Below, piece by piece: positions 25,790-63,130 of a stretch of 64,000 nucleotides of DNA. Each line of letters starts with the position of its first letter. Positions within the stretch are counted from its first letter, which is position 1. This DNA comes from Actinopolyspora mzabensis (GTDB lineage Bacteria; Actinomycetota; Actinomycetes; Mycobacteriales; Pseudonocardiaceae): contig NZ_FNFM01000006.1 in NCBI RefSeq assembly GCF_900101095.1, positions 62,001 to 126,000 of the forward strand, in the 5' to 3' direction. The notes under the pieces were generated by a model, which did not search any database, was not told the origin of the DNA, and saw nothing but the letters and a program-made list of their open reading frames with translations. A program made the position numbers and the translations under genes.

Positions 25790-25985
25790 GTCCAAGTGAG
25801 ACCGAGGCGAACACTCGCGTAGCGCCCGGCGCGGGCACGCTCCACCGGGCACGCCCCGATGGGCGAGTCCACTGGCACGCCTCACCGGCCGTGCCACCGG
25901 ACCCCGCCGGTCGCCACGCGAGTTCCCTCCGCCACGCGTTCGCGAACGCACGGTGCGCGGAGCGGCAGAACCAACGGAAACGACG

Positions 25986-26795
25986 GTGCGGAACCAGATC
26001 TCTGTCGGCCCAGCGGCCGCCATCTACCTGTGTGAGCGTTACGACCTCACGATCCACCCGCTGCTGCGGGTGGGCATGCTGTCGGTGCAGCTCGACGAGG
26101 ACGAACGGGTCCGGATCCCGGAAGAGGGCCGGGCCGAGCTGCAGCGGCAGGGGTTGATCCAGACCGACGAGGTGCACCCCTTCCTCGACGACGCCTGGCA
26201 CCTGCTCGCCTATCCACCGCTGGCGCTCGGCATGGCGGTGCGCGACGACGAGGAGAGCTTCAACGCGGTGCTGGCAGAGCAGGGCCGCGGCACGCTGCGC
26301 GCCTACCAGGCCGACGCCCCCGACTCCGGCTCGGCGGAGAACATCCTGCTCGATCGGCAGGAGTACGGCGGTCTCGGCGGAAACGCCGTCAAACTGCTCG
26401 GCGAGCTCAAACCGCTCTCCGGCGGCTCGGCCAGCGTGCCCACCGAGCTGCTCAAGCAGGTGGGCCAACGGATGAAGTCCGATCCCTCCGGCAACGCCAT
26501 GAGCGCGCTGGCGTCGGTGGGGGTCCGGCAGAACGACGCGCGGGTGCTCGGCAACGTCATGACCACGCCGCGCAGCACCGAGGCGGTCATCACGGCCCGC
26601 CGTCACGACCGCAAGGTCAACCGGACGCACAAGCTGCCGAACGGCCTGCAGGTCTTCCGCACCGAGCAGGGCTGCTACATGACCCAGCAGAGCACCGGAA
26701 GCGACGGGCGCGAGTGGTTCACCGTCGCGCCCGCCGACCCACGCAAGGTCACCGCCAAGCTGGAGGAGATGCTCGAACACCTTCGTAGCGCCTGA
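25986..26795 (+). CDS. EspG-family ESX secretion chaperone
   Basis: The 269-residue product matches the EspG family, cytosolic chaperones that bind PE/PPE substrates for type VII secretion. Seen in it are the acidic N-terminal half (PAAAIYLCERYDLTIHPLL, DEDERVRIPEEGRAELQRQG) and the C-terminal beta-sheet half (GLQVFRTEQGCYMTQQSTG, then WFTVAPADPRKVTAKLEEML). The GTG at 25986 follows GGAAACGACG; an upstream GTG at 25953 is possible. No EccB-E secretion core is present in this window, so the locus must rely on one elsewhere. Confidence 0.85.
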   Translation: MRNQISVGPAAAIYLCERYDLTIHPLLRVGMLSVQLDEDERVRIPEEGRAELQRQGLIQTDEVHPFLDDAWHLLAYPPLALGMAVRDDEESFNAVLAEQGRGTLRAYQADAPDSGSAENILLDRQEYGGLGGNAVKLLGELKPLSGGSASVPTELLKQVGQRMKSDPSGNAMSALASVGVRQNDARVLGNVMTTPRSTEAVITARRHDRKVNRTHKLPNGLQVFRTEQGCYMTQQSTGSDGREWFTVAPADPRKVTAKLEEMLEHLRSA

Positions 26796-28519: not shown

Positions 28520-29797
28520 GTGACCCCGTCGGCAGCACCCACCATCGCCGGTTCCGCGACACGGTTGGACGCCGTGACCGCCGAGCTGGAACCACCCTTC
28601 GGGGTGGCGGATCTGGACGCGTTCGACCGCAATGCCGCCGAACTCGCGAGACGCGCCCACGGCAAGCCGATCCGCCTGGCCACGAAGTCGCTGCGCTGCC
28701 CCGAGCTGATCCGCCGCGCGCTGCGCTCACCGGGTTTCGCGGGACTGATGTGCTACAACCTGCCCGAGGCGCTCTGGCTGTACCGACTGGGAATCTCCGA
28801 CGACCTGCTGGTCGCCTACCCCACGGTCGACCGCGCGGCCCTGGCGGAACTGGCCGCCGATCCGGGCGCCGCCGCAGCGGTCACGATCACCGTCGACTCC
28901 GTCGAGCAGCTCGACCTGATCGAACGGGTGACCTCCGGCGCCGCCGAGCGGGTGCGGATCTGCATGGAGATCGACGCTGCCTGGCGCCCGCTGGAAGGGC
29001 CGCCGCTCTCCCGTGTTCCCGGGCTCGGCACGAAGCTCGTCGAGCGGCTGCACCTCGGCCCGTTGCGCTCGCCGGTGCGTTCGCCGCGACAGGCGCGCGA
29101 GCTGACGCGGGAGATCCAGCGCCGGGAAGCCTTCCGGCTCGTCGGCATGCTGGTCTACGAAGGACAGATAGCGGGAATCGGTGACGCCCCACCCGGGCAG
29201 CCGCTACGCGCGGCTGCCGTCCGTTGGGTGCGGCGTGGCTCGGCCACGGAACTCGCCCGCCGTCGTGCGGCGGTCGCCGAGGCCGTCGGTGAGCTCTGCT
29301 CGCTGGAATTCGTCAACGGAGGTGGAACCGGCAGTCTGGAGACGACGACGATCGAATCGGCCGTCACCGAGGTAGCGGCGGGCTCGGGTCTGATAGGGCC
29401 GACCCTGTTCGACGCCTACGAGGCGTTCCAACCGCTGCCCGCCGTGCTGTTCGCGCTGCCGGTGGTACGTCGCCCCGACCGTCGTAGTGCCACCCTGTTC
29501 TCCGGTGGTTATACGGCTTCCGGTGTGGCGGGGCCGGACCGGCTTCCCAGCCCTTACCTGCCCAGTGGGTTGCGACTGACCGGAACCGAAGGCGCCGGGG
29601 AGGTACAGACCCCCGTCGTGGGGCCGGGAGCACGGCGACTCCGGCCGGGTGATCGGGTTTGGTTCCGGCACGCCAAGGCAGGCGAGCTGGCCGAGCGGCT
29701 TCCCGAGTACCACCTGCTCGAATCCCTCGACTCCGGAGCGGACCGCAGGCTCGGTGCCGTCGACACTTACCGCGGCGCGGGCAAGTCCTTCGGCTGA
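28520..29797 (+). CDS. PLP-dependent amino acid deaminase/aldolase (alanine racemase-like fold)
   Basis: The roughly 425-residue product resembles D-threonine aldolase/D-serine dehydratase-like enzymes of fold type III. The PLP lysine is expected in IRLATKSLRCPELIRRAL (Lys about 56). Later come LVGMLVYEGQIAGIGD and LEFVNGGGTGSLETT, which bind phosphate, and the C-terminal metal-binding region (GDRVWFRHAKAGELAERLPEY). GTG 28520 is preferred; a TTG at 28511 is possible, and a leaderless start cannot be excluded since no ribosome site is good. It ends inside the end of the convergent TetR gene (31-bp overlap). Confidence 0.85.
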   Translation: MTPSAAPTIAGSATRLDAVTAELEPPFGVADLDAFDRNAAELARRAHGKPIRLATKSLRCPELIRRALRSPGFAGLMCYNLPEALWLYRLGISDDLLVAYPTVDRAALAELAADPGAAAAVTITVDSVEQLDLIERVTSGAAERVRICMEIDAAWRPLEGPPLSRVPGLGTKLVERLHLGPLRSPVRSPRQARELTREIQRREAFRLVGMLVYEGQIAGIGDAPPGQPLRAAAVRWVRRGSATELARRRAAVAEAVGELCSLEFVNGGGTGSLETTTIESAVTEVAAGSGLIGPTLFDAYEAFQPLPAVLFALPVVRRPDRRSATLFSGGYTASGVAGPDRLPSPYLPSGLRLTGTEGAGEVQTPVVGPGARRLRPGDRVWFRHAKAGELAERLPEYHLLESLDSGADRRLGAVDTYRGAGKSFG

Positions 29798-30414
29798 TCC
29801 TCCGAGATCCGACTGGACAGGTAACCGCGGACCAGCTCCCTCGCCTCGTTGACCAGTGTCTGGTCCCCCTCGGGAGCGCGCCGGAACGCCAGGTGCAGCA
29901 CCGCGTCAGCGGCCTCCACCGCGACCGACAGCGGAAGCTCCAGCGCACCGGGTGGCATCCCGAACCGATCCGAGATTAGGCTGGTGAGCTTCTCCGCGAT
30001 CACCGCGTTGTTGTCCTTGGTCTCGTGCAGCAGCCGCAGATCCACCACGTCACCGAAGTGCAGCTTGCTGAACGCGGGTATCTCCCGGTGCATCCCCAGG
30101 TAGACGTCGAAGACCGTGTCCACGGCGTCCCACCAGTGGGCGAGCTCTGTCCGGTCCAGTCGTTCGGAGACCGTCTGCACGAAGCGATCCAGATTGCGCA
30201 GTGTCAGCTCCTGCACCACCGCGCGTTTGTCCGGAAAGAACTGGTACAGCGAACCGACGGCGACACCGGCACGTTCGGCTATCAGTGTCGTGGTCAGCCC
30301 GTCGTACCCCACCTCATCGATGAGTTGTGCGCAGGACTCCAGCATCCGCTCGACACGCTGGGCGCTGCGTTGCTGGACGGGCTTGCGGCGCAGCGGGGCT
30401 ACTTCGGTTGGCAA
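29767..30414 (-). CDS. TetR-family transcriptional regulator
   Basis: The 215-residue product has an N-terminal TetR helix-turn-helix (RMLESCAQLIDEVGYDGLTT, then ERAGVAVGSLYQFFPDKRAVV, about 20-65) and an all-helical ligand domain. The TTG at 30414 is chosen because CAAGGAGTCACC precedes it; the further upstream frame is Arg/Ala-rich and unlike the family. It is divergent from the isonitrile-synthase-like giant and overlaps the aldolase gene tail to tail. It may control either neighbour. Confidence 0.88.
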   Translation of the reverse strand: MPTEVAPLRRKPVQQRSAQRVERMLESCAQLIDEVGYDGLTTTLIAERAGVAVGSLYQFFPDKRAVVQELTLRNLDRFVQTVSERLDRTELAHWWDAVDTVFDVYLGMHREIPAFSKLHFGDVVDLRLLHETKDNNAVIAEKLTSLISDRFGMPPGALELPLSVAVEAADAVLHLAFRRAPEGDQTLVNEARELVRGYLSSRISEDQPKDLPAPR

Positions 30415-30933
30415 GGTGACTCCTTGATCGTATCCGAGCTCCAGGTTTTCCCGGACCGAGTCCGAGGCGCGCCGCAGGCGCCGACGGCCAGCCAAGCGGC
30501 ACGGCTTGCCTAGTCTCGCGCTCTTAAAGCGATCATGCTTCCTGAGCGGTCCTTCAGAGTGTCAGTCGATAGGGTGAGCAGTGATCCTTCGTCCGCACGA
30601 TCGCCGCTGCCGCCGGCCCGGTGAACCGTGCCGACGTCGGCGGGATCCAACGCCCGAGTCGGATCGCGTTACGCGATTATGCACCTCGTCACATCGGCGG
30701 CGAAAAAGATCGCTCGCAAGCGTGAGACGGTGCGCCCGGCCGGTCGGTCGTCCCCCGCACGATTACTCGATGATTGACTATCGCGATCTCGGGGTGGCGC
30801 ATGGTGTTGTCTGACCGAGACGAATCGCTGTCCGCAACCCCGGCACCCCCATCCGGTACCCCGGACCGGATGGTTCCAATCGCGGAGCTCGGTGTCTCCG
30901 CCCGCAGCCGGAGGAAGAGCAAGGAGATACCCG
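30415..30933. other. Divergent promoter region, TetR versus isonitrile-synthase-like gene
   Basis: About 520 bases. An imperfect dyad CGCTCTTAAAGCG near 30519-30531 and nearby AT-rich stretches could be TetR operator or promoter elements, but neither is certain. Frames crossing the gap look like shadows. Confidence 0.4.
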
Positions 30934-33900
30934 TTGGACGGTCGGTCCCGGCTTGGCCCCGAGGAAAACACAGCACCGCCGTTCGGGGCGTGGCCGCTCG
31001 ACGTGGCCCGGGCCAACTCCGTGCTCGCCGGAGGCGAGTACGGGGTGCGTCTGTCGCGTCGCGACGGTCTGGTCAGGTTGGTCGGAGAGAGAGCGGGTAG
31101 TGGGATCTCACTGGGAAGCGCTCCGACCTGGCGGGAGCTCTACCGGACGCTGATCCGACTGCGCCTCACCCGTGGCCGCCGTGATCCGGCGTGGCTGGCG
31201 CTGCTCACCGAAGTACTCGACACCTTCCCCGTCGACTTCCCGGGTAACGGCTCCCCGCGGAGCGCTTCCCCACGGGGTGCGTTCCCGCCGGGTGGGTCCG
31301 GAGCGGGCGGACCCGGACAGGAGGAGCCCCCACGGCCCGGCCCGGCGTGGACCCGGTTCGCCGGGATGTTGGCCGAGGACCCGATAATCCGGATGCACTG
31401 CGCCACGGCCGAACCACGCGTTCCCGACGATGCGGCGGCCCCGCTGGGTGAGCCGAGCCCCCCGCACCCCGCTTTCCCCGGCGGGACCATAGCCGTCCGG
31501 CTCCCCACCCTGCTGCGGATCGGTCCGGCGCTGCCGCAACCGCTGCTGGGTGAGGTGGTGGGCAACCGCTTCGAACGCGCCGAGAGCGCGGCACGCTACT
31601 TCCTGGAACACTTCGTCCGACCGCCGCTGCGGGCCTTCCGGCTCGTGCTGGAGAACTCACCGGGAATGCTGCTCACCCCGCGCGTGGAAACCCTCGCCGT
31701 GGAACTCTCCCCGGAGACCCAGGCGACCGGCCGGTTCGTCTTGACCCCCGAGACCGCGGTGCGCGAGGCCCGGGAGGTCACGGCGAGCGAGGTCCGTGAC
31801 GGGGTGCGCGAACTGGTTCGCACCCTCCAGGAGCTGTCCGCGACGTTCGAGCTGACCCAGTTCGGCGAGCGCGACCGGGCGGGTCGCGGCGAGTTCCGCG
31901 CCGCGATGCGGCAGGTGATCTCGGCCGAGTTGCGTGACCTGGAAACCGGTAGCGCCGATGTGCTCTCCGGAAACCATCCGCTGCGCGGTTTCGTGCACAC
32001 CGTCCCGGCCGAGCAGGACGAGCTGCTTCGCCGGGTGCTGCGCACCGTGCAGGAGCGTACCCGGCTGCGCAGGTGGAATCGCGAGCTCGGCCAACCGGCC
32101 GTGGTGATAGACCTGGAAGCCTGCGGGCTGGTGCCGGAACGCACGGTCCCGCCGGGCCAGGCCGGAAGCGAACCGTTCCGGAACCGCTCGGACGGCGACC
32201 CGTTCCCGCACTCCTTAGCGCGCGGGGAAAGCTCGAATCGTCGTAGCTCCGGAGCCGCCGGGCCCGAACTCCCTCATCCCGAGAGCGTCCTGTCGGAAGG
32301 TTCCCGGTCAGAAGGTTTTCGGCCGGAAGGTTCCCACCCCGAGAATCACCCGTTCGAGCTATGCCGCTTCGAGTCGAGCCGCGACGAACCCGGCGGGGCG
32401 CGCGGACCGCGATTCCGCGGCCGGTCGTCCCACCGCGCCGCCGAATCCGTGTGGGACCCGCCCACCGCCGAGCTGGCGGAGCTGCACACGCCGATCACCG
32501 GCACGGTCGGAGCGGGGCTGCCCAGATTCGTCTGGGACATCCGCGACGCGGGTGGGCGAGTGGTGTTCTGCGGGCCGGGAGCCGAGCGGCACTACGACCA
32601 CGCGCGAGTCGTACTGGATCGCGCCGGAGTCCCCGAGGCCGACCTGATCCGGGTGCCGCTCACCGAAGCCGGTTCCGCGACCGAGTGGACCGTCCACCGG
32701 TTGCGGGAACTCGGCGACACCGACGTCGTGGCGATCTTCGACACCGAATCCGCCGCCACCGGGATCGAGCTCCCCGGAGTGCTGACCGTCGCGGTCTCGC
32801 CGCGGGGGACGCTGCCCCGCCAGCGCGACGGTCGGAGGAACGGTGTCGAGCCCTTCCCGGTACCGGACCGGGTCGTTCCCGTGATCTCCAGTTTCGAGAT
32901 CTCCCCGTGGCGCCATGCCGCGTGGTCCCAGCCCGTGCTCTCCAACACGCATTCCCTGGAAGAACTCCAGATAGCCTCGTTGCGGGAGAACCGCAGCTCG
33001 TGGCGCTGGGCGGTCCGGCTGAGCCGGGCGGAAACCGAATCCATGGTGGAATCCGTGCTCGACGACGCCGACCGTGCCGCGGACCGAACCGCGCGTGGCG
33101 CCAGGGTGAAGTTCGCGGTCGACGAGCCGGTCGCCGACCCGGCCGAACGGACCCGGCGCACCGTCGGGGCGTTGCATCACGTGCTCACCAGGAAGCAGTT
33201 CCTCAAGGGATCGCGCTCCAACTACCTGCTGGCGGACATGCATCGCGACGCGGATCTCTTCGTGGCGCGCGACGAGCCGGTCGAGGTGATGCTGCTGGGC
33301 TTCCCGGTCAAGCATTCGCTGAACCGGCTGAAGGCGTGCGGGCCGCTACCCGACATCGCCGAGCTGGGTGGGCTGATCCGGCTGCGCGAGCTGCAGCGAG
33401 CGGCGCGTGGTGTCTACCCGCCCGGGCTGCGTTTCAACATCCTCACCGACGGCAGGCACTTCCGTCCCAGGCCGGTCTCGGTGACAGCCGCTTACACCCG
33501 CAAACTGCGCGAGTACGCCTCGATGGTGGGGCTCGACGGCTGCGTGTCCATCCGCGAGATCGACTCGCTGGCCACCGAACGGCTCGGGCGGGAGGTGACC
33601 GACCTTCGCCCCGACATGTACGAACGTTTCCGAGGTTCGCTGGAACGCGCGCTGCAAGGGCTCGACATCACCGACCAACCGCTGCGCACCCTGGACCGGG
33701 TGCGGGATCGGGCGGATGCGCGGCTGGGGCCGGACGCGGAGAGTGTGGCGCGTTCGCTCTACCTGTTCCGCGAGATGGTGATGTCCATGGTCTACTCCGT
33801 GCCCGTGCCGACTCCCACGGGCACGGATCGGTTCGGTTGGGCCCGAAGGGTCTACGCCGATGTCTACAACCTCGGTGACTCGCGACTCTCGCCGCAGCTC

Positions 33901-34314
33901 AGGCAGGCGCGCGTCGCGGTGCTGCGGCGTGCCTGGCACAACGCGATCCGCTATCTGTCCACCATGCAGGTGGACGAGGAGCTCGGTTACGAGAAGCTGC
34001 TGGATCCCCGGGTGAGGCTCACCGTGAGCGCCGTGACCAAGGGACGCTGCGGTTTCACCTATCTGGGTGGGTCCGGGCTGCTTCCCTGGCAGGGGACCGG
34101 GGTGCTCGACAGCAGGGGGTACGTCGCTGTGGACTTCGCGGTCTCGTTGATCGACCAGGGGTTCGTGCCCGCCTTCTCCCCGCTGCTGGGGTCGAGCCAG
34201 CCGCTGATGATGGTTCCACCGCAGTACGCCCGGTTGCCTTCCCGCGGGTCACGTGCACCGGGCGCCCTGCTGGACGGCTCCCTGCGCGACAGGGCCCGCC
34301 TACGCCGCAAGTGA
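30934..34314 (+). CDS. Giant fusion: unknown N-terminus, HAD-like region and PvcA/Dit1-like isonitrile synthase
   Basis: The 1126-residue product ends in a domain (about 740-1100) that matches the PvcA/Dit1 isonitrile synthase pattern: LLGFPVKHSLNRLKACGPLPD (Phe 790), VYPPGLRFNILTDGRHF, and PWQGTGVLDSRG. These enzymes turn the alpha-amino group of Tyr or Trp into an isonitrile with ribulose 5-phosphate. Before it, IDLEACGLVPE (about 390), GGRVVFCGPGAERHYDHA (about 540) and VVAIFDTES (about 597) follow the HAD-fold order, but the catalytic DxD is DLE. Residues 1-380 are unassigned, with RPPLRAFRLVLEN weakly recalling siderophore synthetases. A Ser/Pro/Glu-rich linker spans about 405-520. The TTG start follows AAGGAGATACCCG. 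PvcA is normally about 330 residues. No PvcB-like oxygenase lies nearby. Confidence 0.75.
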   Translation: MDGRSRLGPEENTAPPFGAWPLDVARANSVLAGGEYGVRLSRRDGLVRLVGERAGSGISLGSAPTWRELYRTLIRLRLTRGRRDPAWLALLTEVLDTFPVDFPGNGSPRSASPRGAFPPGGSGAGGPGQEEPPRPGPAWTRFAGMLAEDPIIRMHCATAEPRVPDDAAAPLGEPSPPHPAFPGGTIAVRLPTLLRIGPALPQPLLGEVVGNRFERAESAARYFLEHFVRPPLRAFRLVLENSPGMLLTPRVETLAVELSPETQATGRFVLTPETAVREAREVTASEVRDGVRELVRTLQELSATFELTQFGERDRAGRGEFRAAMRQVISAELRDLETGSADVLSGNHPLRGFVHTVPAEQDELLRRVLRTVQERTRLRRWNRELGQPAVVIDLEACGLVPERTVPPGQAGSEPFRNRSDGDPFPHSLARGESSNRRSSGAAGPELPHPESVLSEGSRSEGFRPEGSHPENHPFELCRFESSRDEPGGARGPRFRGRSSHRAAESVWDPPTAELAELHTPITGTVGAGLPRFVWDIRDAGGRVVFCGPGAERHYDHARVVLDRAGVPEADLIRVPLTEAGSATEWTVHRLRELGDTDVVAIFDTESAATGIELPGVLTVAVSPRGTLPRQRDGRRNGVEPFPVPDRVVPVISSFEISPWRHAAWSQPVLSNTHSLEELQIASLRENRSSWRWAVRLSRAETESMVESVLDDADRAADRTARGARVKFAVDEPVADPAERTRRTVGALHHVLTRKQFLKGSRSNYLLADMHRDADLFVARDEPVEVMLLGFPVKHSLNRLKACGPLPDIAELGGLIRLRELQRAARGVYPPGLRFNILTDGRHFRPRPVSVTAAYTRKLREYASMVGLDGCVSIREIDSLATERLGREVTDLRPDMYERFRGSLERALQGLDITDQPLRTLDRVRDRADARLGPDAESVARSLYLFREMVMSMVYSVPVPTPTGTDRFGWARRVYADVYNLGDSRLSPQLRQARVAVLRRAWHNAIRYLSTMQVDEELGYEKLLDPRVRLTVSAVTKGRCGFTYLGGSGLLPWQGTGVLDSRGYVAVDFAVSLIDQGFVPAFSPLLGSSQPLMMVPPQYARLPSRGSRAPGALLDGSLRDRARLRRK

Positions 34315-34551: not shown

Positions 34552-34603
34552 AACCGGGATCCCGGTACTCGCCAGGGGGGAAACGAGTACCGGGATCCCG
34601 GTT
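34552..34603. repeat. Perfect 20-bp inverted repeat with G-rich loop
   Basis: Arms at 34552-34571 (AACCGGGATCCCGGTACTCG) and 34584-34603 are exact reverse complements around the 12-base loop CCAGGGGGGAAA. Each arm itself contains the palindrome CCGGGATCCCGG. The transcript would form a very stable hairpin. It may be a terminator, a structured RNA or a recombination site. Confidence 0.75.
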
Positions 34604-35038: not shown

Positions 35039-35377
35039 CTACGGCACCGGCGCCGCTCGGCGCAGGGCCTGCGCCGGGCGCAGGTGCCGTGCGGGACGGG
35101 GTGCGAGGCCACCGGCCACCAGGTGCTCGTAGGCCGAGCGCCACACCGCGCAGGGTGCCTTGCGCTGGCGCAACCGGGTCGAGCACTGCGGGCAGTTGCC
35201 TCGTTCGTCCGGTTCGTGTGCGGTCAGCAGCGTCCGCCACCCCGCGGTGAGGCGCGGGATCTCGGAGCGCGCTACGGACAGCAGGGACGACGCATCAGCG
35301 CGGTTCGCGAGCTCGGAAAGCACATCGAGTCGCTCCCACACCGCGTTGCGCAGAACCTGTCCCAGGATCGCGTCCAC
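35039..35377 (-). CDS. Small zinc-ribbon-like protein
   Basis: The 112-residue product has a helical N-terminal half and a cysteine pattern in NCPQCSTRLRQRKAPCAVWRS (three Cys, one CxxC), likely a zinc site. Similar small actinobacterial proteins exist, of unknown function. The start at 35377 is a GTG with GAGAAAGTGACGG upstream. It lies 12 bp after the end of the next gene upstream on the same strand, forming a two-gene unit. Confidence 0.6.
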   Translation of the reverse strand: MDAILGQVLRNAVWERLDVLSELANRADASSLLSVARSEIPRLTAGWRTLLTAHEPDERGNCPQCSTRLRQRKAPCAVWRSAYEHLVAGGLAPRPARHLRPAQALRRAAPVP

Positions 35378-63056: not shown

Positions 63057-63130
63057 GGAGCGGATGACGGGATTCGAACCCGCGACCCTCACCTTGGCAA
63101 GGTGATGCGCTACCGCTGCGCTACATCCGC
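63056..63130 (-). tRNA. tRNA-Gly (anticodon GCC)
   Basis: On the minus strand: acceptor GCGGATG (63130-63124) pairs with CATCCGC (63066-63060); D arm GCGC AGCGGTA GCGC; anticodon stem TCACC/GGTGA around TTGCCAA (anticodon GCC); T arm GCGGG TTCGAAT CCCGT; discriminator T at 63059 and encoded CCA (63058-63056). All four arms pair. Confidence 0.96.

Follow-up and report, generated by a model that had tools for sequence, protein, structure and literature searches.

A fusion protein with a PvcA/Dit1-like domain, a HAD-like region and an N-terminal part resembling siderophore synthetases in Actinopolyspora mzabensis

A Fusion Gene Composed of Three Parts

The window analyzed in this study, a stretch of 64,000 nucleotides from Actinopolyspora mzabensis (contig NZ_FNFM01000006.1, positions 62,001 to 126,000), encodes a single protein whose C-terminal domain is assigned to the PvcA/Dit1 superfamily. 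This domain is preceded by a region related to HAD phosphatases and by an N-terminal part that may derive from nonribosomal peptide synthetase (NRPS)-independent siderophore (NIS) synthetases (Table 1). Few biological sources of the isonitrile group are known, and enzymes containing the corresponding Pfam domain, PF05141, belong to them. The open reading frame (ORF), its coordinates, and its length are as given in a preliminary description of this DNA, which had been made from the sequence alone and had considered the possibility of an assembly error. An assembly or annotation artefact was ruled out by the presence of an uninterrupted ORF in all ten Actinopolyspora genomes searched (that of the window included), four of which (G003, G005, G006, and G009) carry it on contigs longer than 4 Mb. 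The fusion is therefore genuine.

Table 1. Coordinates of the fusion gene, its parts, and flanking features in the window
Feature	Position	Strand	Remarks
Divergent TetR regulator	29767..30465	-	Family-wide; uncertain whether linked to the fusion
Inverted repeat GCGGAG...CTCCGC	30882..30901	+	Both arms retained in 10 aligned Actinopolyspora sequences
Shine-Dalgarno sequence AAGGAG	30921..30926	+	7 bases 5' of TTG; identical in 10/10 Actinopolyspora
Coding sequence, fusion protein, 1126 residues	30934..34314	+	TTG start; uninterrupted homologous ORF in 10/10 Actinopolyspora genomes
N1, residues 16-100, small beta-alpha subdomain	30979..31233	+	Mostly high prediction confidence; by itself not assignable to a family
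N2, residues 137-386	31342..32091	+	Similar to NIS siderophore synthetases (C-terminal half); lacks the catalytic motif
HAD motif I region, residues 387-400	32092..32133	+	VVIDLEACG, D-x-E replacing D-x-D
Ser/Pro/Glu linker, residues 401-522	32134..32499	+	Mostly disordered; insert between motifs I and II
Remaining HAD Rossmann core, residues 523-625	32500..32808	+	Motifs II-IV lost
PvcA/Dit1-like domain, residues 666-1126	32929..34311	+	K793, K800, P806-D807, E810, D839, W1001, P1051-W1052, basic tail LRRK

The C-Terminal Domain Belongs to the PvcA/Dit1 Superfamily

Residues 776-886 of the fusion protein matched the Pfam family PF05141 (DIT1_PvcA) with 53.6 bits (cut-off 26.4; E-value 2.9e-14), and a match at E ≤ 1 was obtained for all 25 relatives scanned, the best reaching 6.2e-20. 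For the AlphaFold model of the whole protein (mean predicted local distance difference test (pLDDT) 81.5; predicted template modelling score (pTM) 0.83), Foldseek returned only eight matches at E ≤ 0.001, all of them to PvcA/PIsnA crystal structures (E-values from 6.5e-9 to 5.4e-8), with template modelling (TM) scores by target between 0.59 and 0.67 for 3e59, 9dh4, and 9dhm. PIsnA and PvcA were also recovered from the PDB, with E-values between 1.9e-12 and 7.1e-12, by a profile built from 54 aligned family rows; these rows were drawn from 75 sequences after exclusion of 21 close relatives, and 23 of them are distinct at 70% identity. Comparison with nine stand-alone PvcA-like proteins using hhalign gave a probability of 98.9 over 230 aligned columns at 24% identity. 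These proteins (L020-L025 and L085-L087, the latter three exceeding the PF05141 cut-off) carry our own label, none of them being characterized. Taken together, the computations show that residues 666-1126 are assignable to the PvcA/Dit1 superfamily and are predicted to adopt the PvcA fold, and the PvcA/Dit1-like C-terminus recognized in the preliminary description is thus confirmed by both Pfam and Foldseek.

The residues K793, K800, P806, D807, E810, D839, W1001, P1051, W1052, and R1124 were identical in all 54 rows, and the Lys, Lys, Pro-Asp, Glu, Asp-Gly, and Ala-Trp columns were also invariant in the nine stand-alone proteins. Positions common to both sets are FP.K, K, PD.AE, DG, AW, and PW. 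Accordingly, the domain resembles PvcA/IsnA (PIsnA; PDB 3e59, 9dh4, and 9dhm) in its fold and in the motifs FP.K, K, G.(L)PD.AE, (S/T)DG..F, AW, and PW, but differs from it by an extra helical N-terminal portion, a basic LRRK tail, the fusion to two further parts, the loss of the SIHPQ motif discussed below, and a length of approximately 460 residues, compared to 315-330 residues in the PDB entries. The LRRK tail was found in 31 of the 54 rows and, by eye, in none of the nine stand-alone proteins.

The Middle Part Is Related to HAD Phosphatases

Catalytically competent HAD phosphatases carry the motifs D-x-D, T/S, K, and DD. A HAD-like region with DLE in place of D-x-D had been proposed previously, and relatives of the fusion protein indeed hold an intact HAD domain at the same place, the HAD stretch being present in 45 of the 54 rows and all four motifs in 24 of these 45. 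Among the eight Actinopolyspora rows, no complete set was found: the window copy retains none of the four motifs, L037 one, and L036, L038, and L039 two each. The motifs were also lost in L113-L115, and L043, L116, the rows consisting of the PvcA part alone, and G619 lack the stretch or carry it in shortened form. Weak matches to Acid_phosphat_B (subfamily IIIB) were obtained for 14 of 25 diverse relatives, with 2e-4 as the best value. These computations identify the middle part as a HAD phosphatase, intact in many relatives, from which the catalytic motifs have disappeared in the window copy.

The spacing between motifs I and II amounts to 112-113 residues in most relatives with intact HAD, 91-107 residues in the second paralogue (see below), and 61-153 residues in Actinopolyspora. 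In the window protein, the insert between these motifs corresponds to the Ser/Pro/Glu linker already noted in the preliminary description, for which disorder was predicted (pLDDT approximately 30; segments 407-468 and 470-522). As judged from the sequence, this linker is a decayed HAD insert.

The N-Terminal Part Resembles NIS Synthetases

Approximately 380 N-terminal residues had been left unassigned in the preliminary description. This agrees with the Pfam scan, in which no family was found for the N-terminus of the window copy, and with a PDB sequence search, which yielded nothing below an E-value of 0.57 for this part; nevertheless, a resemblance of residues 16-386 to NIS synthetases emerged. 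The predicted model of residues 16-396 (pLDDT 88.6; pTM 0.84) was compared with the PDB by Foldseek, and ranks 1-22 (22 chains from 12 entries) of the 90 matches at E ≤ 10 were all NIS synthetases, although the matches are weak (probability 0.66-1.00, best E-value 0.0099, none below 0.001, query TM-scores 0.19-0.37). The predicted fold is thus nearest to that of IucC, DesD, AcsD, SbnC, AlcC, AsbB, and NcdF.

Profile comparison by hhalign with 30 NIS rows from the order (26 of them distinct at 95% identity, L155 being equal to L163) gave a score of 37.0 (P 0.0014) at a probability of 17% at most, the alignment spanning N2 and the C-terminal half of the NIS synthetases. The maximum among 22 control comparisons, comprising 18 families of neighboring ORFs (from rough gene calls), the stand-alone PvcA-like set, and three reversed profiles, was 20.2. 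A narrower NIS set scored 30.9 (probability 7%), and two subsets of the fusion family scored 35.5 and 34.8; for the latter subset (L113-L116), the alignment extended through the strand carrying the NIS motif. Local profile comparison yielded no NIS match for N1, nor for the NIS part before approximately column 326, and a forced global alignment of N1 with NIS sequences (probability 9%) was not used. The catalytic motif of NIS synthetases, H-x-[EQ]-N, was found in 0 of 41 N-terminal rows, compared to 30 of 30 NIS rows. Several weak, agreeing signals thus suggest that N2, and perhaps also N1, is an NIS-derived part devoid of NIS catalysis.

Distribution, Architectures, and Phylogeny of the Fusion Family

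The window's family is understood here in the sense of GTDB and includes Halosaccharopolyspora lacisalsi, whereas NCBI places Actinopolyspora in the Actinopolysporaceae and Halosaccharopolyspora in the Pseudonocardiaceae. Within this family, 98 out of 297 genomes yielded a match. In 65 genomes, from 13 of 46 genera, the match was strong (E < 1e-60); the other 33 matches were weak and mostly represent stand-alone PvcA-like proteins. In a sample of the phylum, 4 out of 396 genomes matched, the window genome alone strongly and the remaining three with stand-alone PvcA-like proteins, and no match was obtained in the plasmid collection. Beyond the family, two further genomes from the order, G619 and G059, contained strong relatives. 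The relative in G059, a member of a different family, is split into two pieces on two contigs and represents a HAD-PvcA form, in which D-x-D, S, K, and DD are visible and the NIS-like part is missing.

The architectures comprise the PvcA part alone, HAD-PvcA, N2-HAD-PvcA, N1-N2-HAD-PvcA, and N1-N2-PvcA, so that relatives with the order N1-N2-HAD-PvcA, a search for which had been recommended in the preliminary description, do exist. A tree of 63 domains separated the nine stand-alone PvcA-like proteins from the 54 family rows with a support of 100/100 and very long branches. The seven rows with the PvcA part alone grouped together (95/99), and two changes are required to account for the two N1-N2 rows without HAD. 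To judge from these data, several lineages have either lost HAD or retain it in decayed form.

Two paralogues located approximately 4-8 kb apart (e.g., L041:5222-8719 and L041:13074-15614) were present in 20 of the 21 g26 genomes that gave a match. In all 8 aligned rows of the shorter copy, the four HAD motifs were complete, while 7 of 13 g26 rows of the longer copy were devoid of the motif III lysine.

Genomic Neighborhood

Ten ORFs located between 25953 and 44764, not every ORF of this span, were scanned against Pfam. Nine were assigned to EspG, ALO oxidase, alanine-racemase-like, TetR, XRE-TPR, APH kinase, BCCT transporter, RNase H-like, and dehydrogenase families, and one small ORF matched no family. 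Several of these neighbors recur near the fusion in other genera. However, the TetR, XRE, and APH genes were each matched strongly (E ≤ 1e-79, ≤ 1e-167, and ≤ 1e-81, respectively) in 35 of 37 searched genomes of the window's family, whether the fusion was present or not. Since these genes are family-wide regardless of the fusion, their conserved synteny is not evidence of a pathway, and a functional link between the fusion and TetR, XRE-TPR, or APH was set aside. The divergent TetR gene named in the preliminary description is thus present but provides no specific evidence. In 11 of 15 fetched regions, all from genomes without the fusion at this site, the interval between TetR and XRE contains a GH1 glycosidase. 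An MFS transporter was confirmed in four of these regions.

A small ORF on the minus strand (35039-35377) encodes one CxxC pair and matched no Pfam family; in several genera its relatives precede XRE, whether the fusion is present or not.

Selective Constraint and Proposed Function

Between the window copy and its relatives L031, L033, and L034, the ratio of nonsynonymous to synonymous substitution rates (dN/dS) was lowest for the PvcA part (0.114, 0.104, and 0.101, respectively). The values amounted to 0.301, 0.324, and 0.195 for N1, to 0.214, 0.168, and 0.276 for N2, to 0.246, 0.313, and 0.357 for HAD, and to 0.76, 0.636, and 0.472 for the linker. The PvcA part is thus the most constrained one between the window copy and these three close relatives and is under strong purifying selection. 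Accordingly, the term degenerate relative, offered in the preliminary description, fits the HAD part but not the PvcA part. For two pairs with intact HAD motifs, the HAD values were 0.076 (L102/L106) and 0.082 (L107/L108), compared to 0.127 and 0.182 for PvcA.

Because the PvcA part is constrained and its charged residues are invariant, an enzymatic role can be argued, and we assign a probability of roughly 50% to the fusion being an active, lineage-restricted member of this superfamily of enzymes (PvcA/Dit1). The PvcA-like domain would perform a PvcA-type reaction, in which the nitrogen of an amine is joined to a carbon originating from a phosphorylated sugar; according to PMC7345447, PvcA itself uses tyrosine and ribulose-5-phosphate. 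An isonitrile or formyl group would be the result, as expected from membership in the superfamily, and since SIHPQ has been lost, the substrate probably differs from those of the known enzymes. The NIS-like part may serve as a non-catalytic scaffold or as a substrate-holding domain. HAD, where intact, would remove the phosphate from the donor or from a by-product, and Actinopolyspora, like several other lineages, may have become able to do without it.

Several results weigh against this proposal. The SIHPQ motif was found in 0 of 54 family rows, compared to 9 of 9 stand-alone PvcA-like proteins, and the equivalog model for tyrosine isonitrile synthase (NF045653) was failed by a wide margin (26.3 bits, cut-off 600). 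The window N-terminus has no Pfam family, and its NIS matches are weak by both Foldseek and hhalign. The contrast in constraint is not general: in the Actinopolyspora pair L038/L036, HAD (0.093) fell below PvcA (0.133; linker 0.869), in L038/L037 the values were close together (PvcA 0.21, HAD 0.24, linker 0.253), and in L040/L065, a pair with intact HAD motifs, HAD reached 0.454 and PvcA 0.243. The relaxation of HAD is therefore evident in the subgroup of the window, though not in all pairs. Unlike in PvcA systems, no PvcB-like Fe(II)/2-oxoglutarate oxygenase was found among the ten neighboring ORFs scanned, nor was an NRPS, as the preliminary description had correctly observed, and the locus occupied by the fusion is an old one in which no pathway is visible. 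In favor of the proposal, AMP-binding, thioesterase, and ATP-grasp ORFs follow a divergent relative within approximately 5 kb in one distant genome, G619 (L196, 8288-15430); the match of the AMP-binding ORF begins at profile position 158, and the ATP-grasp ORF scored 29.4 bits at a cut-off of 27. This biosynthetic neighborhood is suggestive only, because G619 is a single genome, 74% complete, in which the gene contains a frame break.

Part of these findings would also be accounted for if the PvcA-like domain were a non-catalytic derivative with a binding or regulatory role, which senses or binds a phosphosugar, an amino acid, or an isonitrile-like ligand. The loss of SIHPQ throughout the family, the other two domains of the window protein being stripped of their hallmarks, and the missing biosynthetic partner among the neighbors scanned are in line with such a role. 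It is nevertheless considered a doubtful alternative, since the charged residues held in common with the stand-alone PvcA-like proteins are invariant in all 54 rows and the dN/dS of the PvcA domain is the lowest in the three pairs involving the window. Moreover, the G619 relative features RLSPHPRP where the stand-alone proteins have RLSIHPQ, and the change of this motif may therefore have been gradual.

The isonitrile synthase function originally envisaged is hypothetical. A true synthase catalyzing the known reaction (L-Tyr or L-Trp and ribulose-5-phosphate), to which the additional domains were merely fused and which makes a copper- or iron-binding isonitrile, would share the lysines and the PD.AE and (S/T)DG motifs, as is observed, and the fold matches include, according to the structure titles, PIsnA complexes with tyrosine and with an isonitrile product. 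Such an enzyme is hardly to be expected, however, given the missing SIHPQ motif, the score far below that of the Tyr equivalog, the placement of the family in a distinct, long-branched clade, and the lack of a PvcB-like oxygenase among the neighbors scanned.

Within the proposed enzymatic role, the protein might alternatively N-formylate an amino group, the reaction put forward for yeast Dit1, instead of leaving a free isonitrile. Both proteins belong to the same superfamily, and, as stated in PMC7345447, PvcA does not replace Dit1, for which formyl tyrosine was inferred as the product. The sequence gives no direct support to this variant, which we regard as improbable.

In PMC5974471, the architectures of the isocyanide synthase (ICS) superfamily are given as single-domain proteins and as fusions to either a dioxygenase or an NRPS. 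The fusion studied here resembles the ICS-dioxygenase and ICS-NRPS proteins in that the PF05141 domain resides inside a larger polypeptide, but its partners are a HAD phosphatase and an NIS-like part instead of the dioxygenase or NRPS domains described there. Among the matches listed from open-licence PMC papers, none reported a fusion of HAD or NIS-like parts to PF05141. It is conceivable, though unlikely, that NIS-like, HAD, and PvcA-like parts constitute a fourth architecture of the superfamily, in which one-carbon transfer from a phosphosugar, a substrate held on a repurposed siderophore-synthetase fold, and an ancestrally built-in removal of phosphate would enable a single protein to produce a metal ligand bearing an isonitrile or formyl group in Actinopolyspora and related actinobacteria. 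The conserved fusion family widens the possible roles of the PF05141 domain and hints at a link between isonitrile or formyl chemistry and metal ligands, and the natural series of intact HAD, decayed HAD, no HAD, and PvcA alone is suited to a direct test of the phosphate step.

Translation Start and Flanking Elements

The bases flanking the start are near-identical across the ten Actinopolyspora sequences, and the region farther upstream has diverged. By eye, approximately 80 bases at 30880-30960, comprising the inverted repeat, the TTG codon, and the first codons, are conserved well above other intergenic DNA in these sequences and possibly represent a leader or operator. An upstream GTG at 30892 was considered a less likely start than TTG, because AAGGAG precedes the TTG in all ten sequences and because the GTG, which falls within the conserved inverted repeat, is not shared by all of them (L035 has GCG).

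Apart from a tRNA at 63059-63130, no known RNA element was found in the window. The EspG-family gene (25953-26795) suggests a type VII (ESX) region upstream. Downstream of the fusion, a strong terminator-like hairpin with a stem of 20 pairs is located at 34554-34601, and T6 follows it on the minus strand.

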